From: Porticoccaceae bacterium
Lineage (GTDB): Bacteria; Pseudomonadota; Gammaproteobacteria; Pseudomonadales; Porticoccaceae
Length of the DNA stretch: 64,000 nt
Reading direction: 5' to 3'
Assembly (NCBI GenBank): GCA_024644595.1
Contig: JAHEHL010000002.1
Coordinates: 537,774 to 601,773 of the forward strand
The notes beneath the pieces are model-generated. The model saw only the letters and a program-made list of their open reading frames with translations, made no database searches and was not told the DNA's origin. Positions 25,925 through 50,924 of the stretch are shown piece after piece; within the stretch, counting starts at the first letter, position 1; each line of letters starts with the position of its first letter. The position numbers and the translations under genes were made by a program.

Positions 25925-25952
25925 AAAAAAAAGGAGCCTGAGGAAGGCTCCT
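25925..25952 (-). terminator. Intrinsic terminator of the candidate small RNA
   Basis: A seven-bp stem (25932-25938 with 25946-25952, AGGAGCC/GGCTCCT) is followed on the minus strand by eight T. On the plus strand it is followed by A, so it serves the minus-strand transcript, not osmC. Confidence 0.85.
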
Positions 25953-26047
25953 AAAAAATTCCTTGAATGAGTTTCAAAGGAAGGGGTAGGGGAAAAACCG
26001 TTAAGAACTGCCGAAGCGAATCTTCAAAAATCTTAAAAACTTCAATG
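25925..26047 (-). ncRNA. Candidate LysR-controlled small RNA (~120 nt)
   Basis: No gene is evident between 25900 and 26278, but the minus strand shows a full transcription unit: promoter (26053-26081), predicted start near 26046, and a strong intrinsic terminator with eight T at 25925-25952. No ORF with a ribosome-binding site exists inside; the longest is a 14-codon TTG frame without one. The RNA has a GAAG/CUUC hairpin, a near-palindromic CCUUUGAA/UUCAAGG stem, and a C/U-rich unpaired stretch (CCCCUACCCCUUCC) that could pair with Shine-Dalgarno sequences. Function unknown; existence is inferred from signals only. Confidence 0.5.
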
Positions 26048-26052
26048 CCGCT

Positions 26053-26081
26053 ATAGTAGAAATCTGTCAGCCATACTACAA
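26053..26081 (-). promoter_or_regulatory. Predicted promoter of the candidate small RNA
   Basis: Minus-strand -35 TTGTAG (26081-26076) and -10 TACTAT (26058-26053) are separated by exactly 17 bp. The -35 abuts the proximal LysR box, the arrangement of an activator-dependent promoter. The predicted start is near 26046. Confidence 0.55.
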
Positions 26082-26118
26082 ATGCATTATTTGCATTTTA
26101 GGTATACCATTTTGTAAT
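26079..26118. promoter_or_regulatory. LysR-type operator, copy 1
   Basis: A 40-bp element with two T-N11-A boxes: a proximal ATGCA-N5-TGCAT palindrome (26082-26096) and a distal ATACC...GTAAT box (26104-26118). Their centres lie near -43 and -65 from the predicted small-RNA start, the classical activation and recognition positions of LysR-type regulators. It matches copy 2 (26474-26513) at 32 of 40 positions with no gaps. Confidence 0.65.
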
Positions 26119-26197
26119 ATCTTTGCGAGATCTTCTCAGTTCTTGGTGCGGGCGGGTTCGCTGAAGTTCAGGTTGGGTAAATTACTTTTTGTGGGGC

Positions 26198-26223
26198 AAA
26201 AAAAAGGGCCCAAAGGTGGGCCC
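26198..26223 (-). terminator. Intrinsic terminator of the 40-residue peptide gene
   Basis: A GGGCCC/GGGCCC stem (26206-26211 with 26218-26223, 6-nt loop) is followed on the minus strand by eight T. It lies 56 bp after the stop codon of the small gene. Confidence 0.85.
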
Positions 26224-26278
26224 CATAAAAGAATCCTATAGCAAGGATTAAGAGGGGTTTGGTTCAGAAGTCTCTGGT

Positions 26279-26401
26279 TTACTGGGCCAGAGGCTTTTCG
26301 GAAATTTTGAGTTTTGGTGCTTTAACATTGGCGAAGTCATCTTTCGCAATTGCAGCACCCGCTAATCCAATAAATCCAATTAGTATGTAAACGAGTGTCA
26401 T
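26279..26401 (-). CDS. 40-residue single-span membrane peptide next to LysR regulator
   Basis: A small gene with a near-ideal ribosome-binding site (AAAGGAGAT, 6 bp before the ATG), its own promoter and its own terminator. The product starts MTLVYILIGFIGLAGAAIAK, one hydrophobic helix (or uncleaved signal) of about 18 residues, then a short polar tail (DDFANVKAPKLKISEKPLAQ). I do not recognise the family. It is divergent from the LysR gene, and the operator between them is placed to control it. Other in-frame starts upstream lie inside the operator-promoter region and are not credible. Confidence 0.7.
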   Translation of the reverse strand: MTLVYILIGFIGLAGAAIAKDDFANVKAPKLKISEKPLAQ

Positions 26402-26447
26402 GGTGTATCTCCTTTGGTGTTTATGGGCCGGTCGCCCTATGTGTGAC

Positions 26448-26476
26448 AATATACTGCTCACCATGTCATAATCCAA
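26448..26476 (-). promoter_or_regulatory. Predicted promoter of the 40-residue peptide gene
   Basis: Minus-strand -35 TTGGAT (26476-26471) and -10 TATATT (26453-26448) with 17-bp spacing, giving a start near 26441 and a 40-nt leader. As at the small-RNA promoter, the -35 begins at the edge of the proximal LysR box. Confidence 0.55.
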
Positions 26477-26513
26477 ATGCATTGTTTGCATCATTTGCAT
26501 ACCAATATGTAAT
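26474..26513. promoter_or_regulatory. LysR-type operator, copy 2
   Basis: Second copy of the 40-bp element: proximal ATGCA-N5-TGCAT palindrome (26477-26491) and distal ATACC...GTAAT box (26499-26513). Their centres are at -43 and -65 from the predicted start of the small peptide gene. It also lies 28-67 bp upstream of the LysR start codon, so autoregulation is likely. Confidence 0.7.
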
Positions 26514-26540: not shown

Positions 26541-27515
26541 ATGAATCTACAAAAACTATCTCGGCTTGACCTCAATTTGCTGGTGGCATTGCAGGCATTG
26601 TTGGAAGAAAAAAGTGTCACCCGTGCCGCGCAGCGTCTGTTTATTACTCAGCCGGCGATGAGCCGAGTGCTTCAGCGGTTGCGTCAGCAGCTGGATGACC
26701 CGCTGTTTACACGGACCGGTAATATACTGATTCCCACACCCAAGGCGCAGGAGTTACAGCTTCGGCTGCCTGCGATGCTTGAGGGTATACTCGATCTTGT
26801 TACCGAGGGAGAATTTGATCCCGCGACTTATGTCGGTGAAATTACAATCGCGATTCCTGAGTTTATCGCTATATCTCTGGCGTCCCAGTTGACTGCGGTG
26901 CTCAATAAATACGCGCCGGGTGTTGTTCTATCGATTTCCAGTGAAACGGACTCGGTTGAGGGTGAGCTGTCAGATGCTGTGCTGGATTTTGCCATCGATA
27001 TTAAACGCGATATTTCAGCCGAAATTACCACCCGCCACCTAGCGATTTTCAGTCCTTCGATCTGGATGCGCGAGGGTCATCCGCTATCGAAAAAAAGTCG
27101 CATCACATTAGATGAGATTCTTGAATATCCATTTGTTCAATACTATCTGTTGATTTCTAAGCGAGTGAGTGCCAGAACCGATGCGCGTTTTGACCGAGCG
27201 CTTCGCAAACTGGGTCGTCGGCGTAAAAAGGCAATGGTCACGAATCAGTTGATGACAGCAATTGAAACGATATGTGCGACCGACAGCTTAATGGTATCTG
27301 CCAAGTTTGGCTCGGGTATGGAGCGAGACCTCTATCGAGTAGTTACTAAGAGCTACCCCGATGATCTTCCTCATGAGGGTCATGTGCCTCTGGTTTTATT
27401 GCAACACAAACGCACCATGGGCTCACCGATTCATCGCTGGTTATCTGAGAAGATTGTTGATTTGGCTCGGGATATGGAAAATCCGCACGAACCGCAATCA
27501 ATGTTGTTTGATTAA
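26541..27515 (+). CDS. LysR-type transcriptional regulator
   Basis: 324 residues. The N-terminal winged helix-turn-helix (about 8-66) is typical: [40 protein letters not shown] and [10 protein letters not shown] periplasmic-binding-protein-like effector domain follows to about residue 300. The N-terminus resembles the LeuO/NodD-like branch, but I cannot name the effector. It is divergent from the 40-residue peptide gene with twin operator boxes in the 139-bp gap, and a second operator lies about 395 bp away. The 3' end overlaps the convergent coq7 by 4 bp. Confidence 0.9.
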
Positions 27516-50622: not shown

Positions 50623-50680
50623 ATGCAGATGGCCGCTCTGACCGGCAATGTAAGTCAGGTTTCTTAGCTTAAAAGAGTAA

Positions 50681-50850
50681 ATCCCAAGGTGCCGCTGTCA
50701 ACGTGGCCTTGAACCGAAAAGTTCAAGGTGGCTGCCCTCGCAATACATCAGGCTTTCCGACGCACGGAAGTGCACAACAGTATTGACGGAGAGTAACCGG
50801 GTAATAATTATCGGCTCAGGGACTTCTTGACTGGCGCACACCCCAGGAAT
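50681..50850 (-). ncRNA. ssrS: 6S RNA
   Basis: Located between zapA and ygfA on the minus strand, the conserved ssrS locus. The minus strand carries AGUCCCUGAGCCGAUA (5' half) and CACCUUGAAC...GGUUCAAGG (3' half hairpin), both diagnostic of 6S RNA. The ends pair (AUUCC...GGGAU) to give the long rod that mimics an open promoter and traps sigma-70 RNA polymerase. A -10 TATACT at 50855-50860 sets the 5' end near 50849. The length, about 170 nt, is slightly short; ends are approximate. Confidence 0.85.
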
Positions 50851-50924
50851 CCGCAGTATATCAGAGCGATTTCAAAAAGACCCTGTAAAACGCGATAACT
50901 TGTCAGTGATATGGGCTTGTAGGT

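Follow-up and report, generated by a model that had tools for sequence, protein, structure and literature searches.

GcvA-GcvB and OxyR-OxyS are pairs in which a LysR-type regulator is encoded divergently from its own sRNA. The LysR system closest to the locus described here is VtlR/LsrB-AbcR1/2 of the Rhizobiales, where, according to those parts of the published accounts on which we draw, the LysR-type gene lies beside the tandem siblings AbcR1 and AbcR2 (in S. meliloti these measure 121 and 114 nt), tandem T-N11-A motifs are found upstream of PabcR1 in most sequences, and VtlR directly activates the small-protein gene atu1667 and another sRNA (PMC7486931, PMC8844928, PMC4211561), with LsrB/VtlR driving AbcR1 (PMC8844928, PMC7486931). 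The closest dual-function system is SgrR-SgrS/T. As far as the relevant part of its description goes, SgrS is a 227-nt RNA with a 43-residue ORF followed by a pairing region, a stem-loop and a terminator, it lies beside the activator gene sgrR, the RNA is retained in some species that have lost the ORF, and SgrR activates at least two other genes as well (PMC4021124). Two further systems share single traits, again in the portions of their accounts considered here, i.e. VcdRP of Vibrio cholerae, which encodes a 29-residue peptide and uses four consecutive cytosines to pair at translation initiation sites (PMC8672173), and Rhodobacter CcaF1-CcsR1-4, a single RNase E-processed transcript from an RpoHI/RpoHII promoter in which CcaF1 is an RNA-binding DUF1127 protein (PMC10253847).

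The present locus lies in a 64,000-nucleotide stretch of DNA of a Porticoccaceae bacterium (hereafter the window), in the gene order crp (-), an OsmC-family gene (+), T2 (-), T1 (-), lysR (+) and coq7 (-), where T1 and T2 are predicted transcripts. The peptide ORF, lysR and two downstream terminators were recovered by ORF and terminator scans at the places implied by a preliminary description of this DNA. The features are as follows:

26541..27515, plus strand: lysR, encoding 324 aa with HTH_1 and LysR_substrate in Pfam, the presumed regulator acting at the two operators
26467..26513, minus strand: operator 1 (proximal), copy of a 47-bp repeat with T-N11-A boxes at 26513-26499 and 26491-26477, predicted to serve T1
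26072..26118, minus strand: operator 2 (distal), copy of the 47-bp repeat with boxes at 26118-26104 and 26096-26082, predicted to serve T2
26448..26453, minus strand: T1 -10 element, TATATT, which is TATATT in 24/34 proximal copies
26053..26058, minus strand: T2 -10 element, TACTAT, position conserved, with an alternative TATAGC 3 bases on
26443..26472, plus strand: probable lysR promoter GTGACA-18-CATAAT, facing T1 and overlapped by operator 1
26198..26441, minus strand: T1, predicted 244-nt dual-function RNA (from -10-to-terminator spacing), with peptide ORF and 3' sRNA module
26279..26401, minus strand: micropeptide ORF, 40 codons with stop, MTLVYILIGFIGLAGAAIAKDDFANVKAPKLKISEKPLAQ, hydrophobic N-terminal half and polar tail
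26245..26258, minus strand: presumed T1 pairing seed ACCCCTCTTAATCC, invariant in 30/30 aligned rows, only its first part unpaired
26198..26224, minus strand: T1 intrinsic terminator (terminator scan)
25925..26046, minus strand: T2, predicted 122-nt non-coding sibling sRNA (from -10-to-terminator spacing)
25983..25992, minus strand: presumed T2 pairing seed CCCCTACCCC (type B module alignment, A2)
25925..25952, minus strand: T2 intrinsic terminator (terminator scan), with compensatory changes in the stem

As in VtlR/LsrB-AbcR, the LysR-type gene here adjoins predicted tandem sibling sRNAs of similar size; however, the present array runs divergently to lysR, with the same operator before both siblings, whereas only one of the AbcR siblings is LysR-dependent in the accounts considered. 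Moreover, the VtlR box is GCAT-N3-TG-N3-T and its small protein is encoded at a separate locus, while here the peptide lies inside one sibling. The gene of SgrR, which is not known to be a LysR protein, adjoins the RNA it activates, as is proposed for the present regulator, and T1 has a like succession of ORF, presumed pairing region, stem-loop and terminator; in contrast, SgrS is a single RNA without a sibling array in the part of its account used here, and no Rfam family reaches the gathering score for T1. VcdRP, a dual-function RNA, offers in its C-run pairing a precedent for the presumed seeds of T1 and T2, but it is CRP-repressed, and neither a LysR partner nor a sibling array is described in the sections of its account considered here (PMC8672173). 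In CcaF1-CcsR1-4, too, several homologous sRNAs come after a small-protein gene; unlike the predicted T1 product, however, its protein is not a membrane peptide. The Neisseria sibling sRNAs (PMC13104608), to judge from the portion of that account consulted, have no bearing on the LysR question. A LysR operator shared by both tandem siblings and a peptide inside one of them are thus combined neither in the VtlR/LsrB-AbcR nor in the SgrR-SgrS/T accounts, in so far as these were covered. Literature searching returned no description of such a circuit, which is weak evidence of absence since mostly open-access journals were covered, and a search for SAR92 together with sRNA returned nothing but a single-cell genomics study, judged by its title.

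The preliminary description had proposed a duplicated LysR operator in identical promoter geometry, and on recomputation this holds throughout: positions 26079-26118 and 26474-26513 are identical at 32 of 40 positions without gaps, each copy carries on the minus strand two T-N11-A boxes centred near -65 and -43, the ATGCA-N5-TGCAT palindrome being the -43 box, and in both copies the -35 starts at the palindrome edge and is separated from the -10 by a 17-bp spacer. The start points 26441 and 26046, and hence the -65 and -43 distances, are derived from -10 spacing only. The alignable direct repeat exceeds 40 bp, i.e. 26072-26118 and 26467-26513 share 79 % identity over 47 bp, and the two boxes of each operator lie 22 bp apart. 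LysR-type regulators use sites near -65 and -40. Tandem T-N11-A boxes upstream of a promoter are also a generic LysR-type arrangement, as cited in the part of PMC8844928 drawn on here. Both operator promoters have poor -35 hexamers (TTGGAT and TTGTAG), and a plain sigma-70 scan found no minus-strand promoter at the operator sites, which is compatible with an activator-dependent promoter, though not proof of one; together, the -65/-43 geometry and the weak -35 suggest LysR-dependent activation. With a pattern of operator plus -10, these two sites are the only ones in the window when 3 mismatches or fewer are allowed (none in 100 dinucleotide shuffles), and across the 2.38-Mb genome a longer operator pattern at the same tolerance hits just these two (reversed control 0), both patterns having been built from these two sites and relatives of them. 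The idea of a small regulon is backed by this genome-wide count.

The promoter-like site of lysR, GTGACA-18-CATAAT, is a weak call when taken alone, since one was found where 1.5 are expected in shuffles. Its -35 position averages 4.24/6 matches in the proximal operator copies versus 1.85/6 in the distal ones. This retention in proximal but not distal copies, together with the overlap by operator 1, makes autorepression likely here.

The 3' ends of T1 and T2 are alike, with a C-run followed by a small hairpin, then a U-tract and the terminator, and by this common ending the two look like sibling Hfq-type sRNAs, with T1 resembling a dual-function RNA. That the peptide transcript, too, ends in a predicted sRNA module, which makes T1 and T2 siblings, was absent from the preliminary description. 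The latter had assigned the second operator copy to a transcript without a gene, which agrees with our finding that predicted T2 contains no ATG; the frames from its three TTG codons run for fewer than 20 codons before a stop. A module was obtained from 62 of 68 predicted transcripts (none from G007.1, G014.1, G025.1, G027.1, G030.0 and G033.1). Type A modules (n=39) fold with two or more hairpins in 39/39 cases and leave CCCC open (mean pairing probability 0.001); type B modules (n=23) do so in 22/23, with the first CCCC open (0.004), and the second C-run is about half paired in the full-length T2 fold. In alignments of 30 of the 33 distinct type A modules (A1) and 21 of the 23 type B modules (A2), the type B terminator stem shows two-sided changes in 4/8 pairs, while hairpin 1 of type A is invariant and therefore yields no covariation.

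Conservation along the distal copy was measured in 18 genomes; of the 23 that have a distal module of type B, G031, G005, G008 and G010 had been left out beforehand and G030 was skipped. Mean pairwise identity was 0.77 for operator 2, 0.84 for the T2 -10 and 0.74 for the 3' module; it was 0.48 between operator 2 and the -10, 0.47 in the T2 5' part, and 0.15 and 0.30 in the flanks before operator 2 and after the T2 terminator, respectively. Covariance models of the type A (R1) and type B (R2) modules each match 48/50 genus genomes, and all strong matches lie at the lysR locus bar one, an additional type A module of G025 off the locus (G025:C49:3232-3294, E 2.1e-9). R2 gave three further weak matches elsewhere in the 50 genus genomes (E 0.005-0.01). 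Among 293 genomes of the order, R1 matched 10, strongly only in the five genus members drawn and weakly in five (E 3e-4 to 0.01). Neither T1 nor T2 matches any Rfam family, GcvB and OxyS included, at gathering score. The region has sub-threshold matches to RF04319 and RF00516, which lie on the opposite strand and were taken as chance, and one of the T1 3' module (26191-26254, minus strand) to RF00519 (MmgR sRNA, E 0.26), which is probably chance as well. Eleven of the far lysR loci treated below had no Rfam match. The window's sole Rfam match at gathering score is a 6S RNA at 50677-50852 on the minus strand.

The peptide ORF was found in 29/34 genomes with a dN/dS of 0.148 and with codon position 2 changing least, as expected of a conserved small ORF on an RNA, and it is preceded by a purine-rich ribosome site. 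Residues 2-19 are hydrophobic (mean hydropathy 2.24), and a single-span membrane peptide of 40 residues is predicted. It has no match in Pfam or NCBIfam, and a peptide profile run on 369 genomes of the class returned its own genome and four weak matches inside frames of 364-485 codons.

The regulator itself carries both Pfam domains of the LysR-type family, i.e. HTH_1 at the N-terminus (65.7 bits, cut-off 26.6) and LysR_substrate at the C-terminus (53, cut-off 28). Its closest named relatives are from a Porticoccaceae MAG (94 % identity) and from HTCC2207 and other SAR92-clade members (about 90 %). The top NCBIfam models (BsrA, LelA, YidZ and CitR) all stay far under their cut-offs, and an identity as GcvA was rejected at 36.3 bits against a cut-off of 288. 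No LsrB/VtlR entry is among the best 25 of 42 NCBIfam models or among 22 PDB chains (E 0.001), the comparison having been made against these models and chains. The nearest solved chains include 2uye and 1utb, both of which we take to be DntR. An orthologue of lysR is present in 34/35 genus genomes searched, its own included, and matches of 34-36 % identity were found in 2/21 genomes from other families of the order. One match, G020:C32:528-1493, contains an in-frame TAG, yet two operators and modules are present there.

Had LysR-bearing relatives lacked the element, the operator would have lost its proposed meaning; in fact, the operator pair stands upstream of lysR in 34/34 lysR-bearing genomes scanned from the marine SAR92 clade, a count that is not blind because the matrix was seeded with the two window sites. 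T-N11-A is retained in both boxes of all 68 operators found in these 34 genomes. Among SAR92 strains, HTCC2207, MOLA455, H921 and H231 each have two operators together with the peptide. An operator pattern search matched 48/50 genus genomes, including 14/15 outside the matrix scan, with a reversed control of 0 in every genome; it missed G012 (71 % complete) and G066 (73 % complete). The sole operator matches on contigs without an sRNA-module match are G005:C14 and G010:C56, with 2 mismatches each. G007 has a further operator, its third, whose spacing is longer by one base and which was missed by the matrix and caught by the pattern; G007:C71 and G067:C86 each carry three module copies at the locus rather than two.

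Within the genus, the array varies in what its members encode. The usual order is a proximal T1 with the peptide and a non-coding T2, while in another sub-clade (e.g. G003, G006 and G015) it is the distal RNA that carries the peptide and the proximal one that is non-coding. No peptide was found in G005, G008, G010 and G014, yet both operators are present and the proximal module was recovered in 4/4. Conversely, the distal peptide transcript of G025 and G027 has no C-run while the non-coding sibling retains it, so dual function is not universal; G007 and G033 contain N runs, and G033, whose C-run stretch is masked, is not counted as a loss. The separate loss of peptide and RNA module argues for two functions.

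A further dissociation is seen in the sister clade, and it gives the strongest test of the proposed regulon. Of 38 LysR loci from the named collection (at least 69 % identity) searched with a strict pattern, 31 have two or more operator cores, one (L134) has a single core and six (L151-L156) have none; in these six, lysR adjoins a different gene instead of the array, taken by eye to be trpC. R1, the module model without any operator sequence, was run on the genomes of these six, the sister clade, and gave eight strong matches (E 2e-10 to 3e-9) in five of them, on contigs other than that of lysR; in the sixth genome, G706, R1 found no module. With the genus matrix, an operator site was located 185-214 bases upstream of the module in all seven cases with enough sequence, scoring 5.9 to 29.2 and in each case above all 200 shuffles, while the eighth module (L278) has 117 bases to the contig end and no operator site within them. 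That the operator stays with the RNAs once they are unlinked from lysR is what would be expected of a trans-acting regulon. These sRNAs, no longer beside lysR but still preceded by the operator, lend support to the earlier suggestion of a single regulator behind both micropeptide and small RNA. A shorter peptide of similar look is encoded at L273-L275; a motif-limited ORF scan found no peptide at L271, L272 and L276, and at L277 it returned an unrelated frame only. Directly upstream of lysR, no site beats the best shuffle in any of the six sister-clade genomes (L151 nearly does), so autoregulation is unsupported in the sister clade.

Beyond these, 40 further LysR loci of 32-53 % identity were inspected, of which 30 have the core AATRCATT no more than 140 bases from lysR. 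By identity, the loci (L157-L198 without L169 and L195) were split into Porticoccaceae-like and Halieaceae-like, labels that are our own. Core, C-run and terminator occur together in 14/19 Porticoccaceae-like loci against 0.0 in shuffles, under a C-run rule that was set after the loci had been read. In the Halieaceae-like loci the core was found in 15/19 and the terminator in 17/19 (0.4 expected), with all three elements in only 4/19; 11/19 of these loci share CATCCAGGTCC instead of the C-run. Core, C-run and terminator are all absent from two Acinetobacter loci. Peptides of similar look, one or more each, occur in 5/19 Porticoccaceae-like loci, e.g. ending in GSAIAWDDLK plus a tail. Three tandem operator cores are present at L173 and L174 (Porticoccus sp. 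W117 and BRH_c0), where two of the transcripts carry a motif-found peptide. Among the Halieaceae-like loci, a short, terminator-ended transcript lies divergently upstream of lysR at L177-L196, and peptides of 24-28 residues were read by eye at L178, L179 and L190. Judged from sequence, a related architecture thus reaches Porticoccus and the Halieaceae in diverged form, beyond the genus, an extension absent from the preliminary description.

The genome encodes Hfq (104.7 bits), and the sequence features of an Hfq-dependent sRNA are present alongside this gene, i.e. a stem-loop, a U-rich stretch and a terminator with a long U tail; stem-loop and terminator are what SgrS requires for Hfq, according to the part of its account used here (PMC4021124). 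Regarding targets, sites complementary to the seed are not enriched in its own genome (49 versus 43 in the reversed control), where the only perfect match is the antisense of T1 itself. A start-site pattern gave 61 matches in 31 of the 50 genus genomes versus 31 in the control, and 0 in its own genome; ordinary G-rich ribosome sites would give a like excess. Identical strings recur in two to three genomes at most, two of the 61 matches are antisense to the sRNA, and six of 30 inspected open a frame of at least 100 codons (L235, L244, L245, L247, L250 and L257). Two of these, L235 (G016) and L247 (G004), are short-chain-dehydrogenase-like frames by eye and may provide a target lead.

Taking these data together, we propose, with a probability of roughly 0.7, that lysR encodes a near-dedicated activator of tandem sibling sRNAs, one of which also codes for a membrane micropeptide. 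A tetramer of LysR would occupy each of the 47-bp operators, with recognition at about -65 and activation at about -43, at the -35 edge, and this binding would turn on T1 and T2; at operator 1, which overlaps the probable promoter of lysR, LysR would also repress its own gene. T1 would serve first as mRNA for the 40-residue single-span membrane peptide, and both RNAs would act by Hfq-dependent base pairing, the unpaired C-run annealing to G-rich ribosome-binding sites and so preventing translation. One signal would thereby be converted into repression at the RNA level and a membrane effector, following the logic of SgrS/SgrT. Should this hold, the locus would be a self-contained regulon. The sequence-based elements of this model are the operator pairs and, all of them conserved, their geometry, the coding of the peptide and the 3' modules, together with the operator kept in the unlinked RNAs, and on these the proposed binding, activation, Hfq use, pairing mode and peptide location and function would build. 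The evidence for this reading is comparative, and as such strong.

The purifying selection on the peptide and the peptide transcripts of G025 and G027 that lack the C-run could also be read as signs of a locus devoted to the micropeptide only, in which C-run and hairpin are a mere 3' UTR and the non-coding copies are decayed peptide genes. This is rather improbable, given that non-coding T2 retains operator, -10 and 3' module amid diverging surroundings, that the four genomes in which no peptide was found have lost neither operator and retain the proximal module at least, and that in the sister clade peptide-less copies, still with operator and module, survive at a distance from lysR. The second operator could alternatively be a decoy that titrates LysR, leaving the T2 RNA without function; titration by spare sites is conceivable for a copy of identical geometry, but a decoy would need neither the -10 (0.84) nor the 3' module (0.74), which are as conserved as the operator, and the pairs of the T2 terminator covary, so that we regard this option as very remote.

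It is also unlikely, on the sequence comparisons at hand, that another regulator reads the operator and that lysR is a neighbour or one more target. The sister clade speaks in part for such a regulator, since lysR is unlinked from the operators there and linkage alone does not tie the two together, but the same genomes still possess both lysR and operators. Tandem T-N11-A boxes before a promoter, moreover, are the generic arrangement of LysR-type regulators in the part of PMC8844928 cited above, and G012 (71 % complete), the sole genus genome without a lysR match, is also without the operator. The reading of lysR as activator of both siblings is the one that we prefer.

It is tempting to speculate further that this locus belongs to an ancient and as yet undescribed regulatory family of the SAR92 clade, the Porticoccaceae and the Halieaceae, although we put the chance of this at somewhat less than even. 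In such a family, a LysR regulator would have sibling sRNAs as its near-only direct targets, built as cassettes of operator, optional membrane-micropeptide ORF, exchangeable seed (C-rich or other) and Hfq module, which multiply, swap their peptide and scatter together with their operator. If this were true, RNA and peptide intermediates would be the sole means by which a transcription factor governs an entire physiology. Relatives in which the peptide is lost, the seed is lost or the array is scattered represent natural experiments that separate the role of the RNA from that of the peptide, a separation that is hard to address in the known dual-function RNAs.
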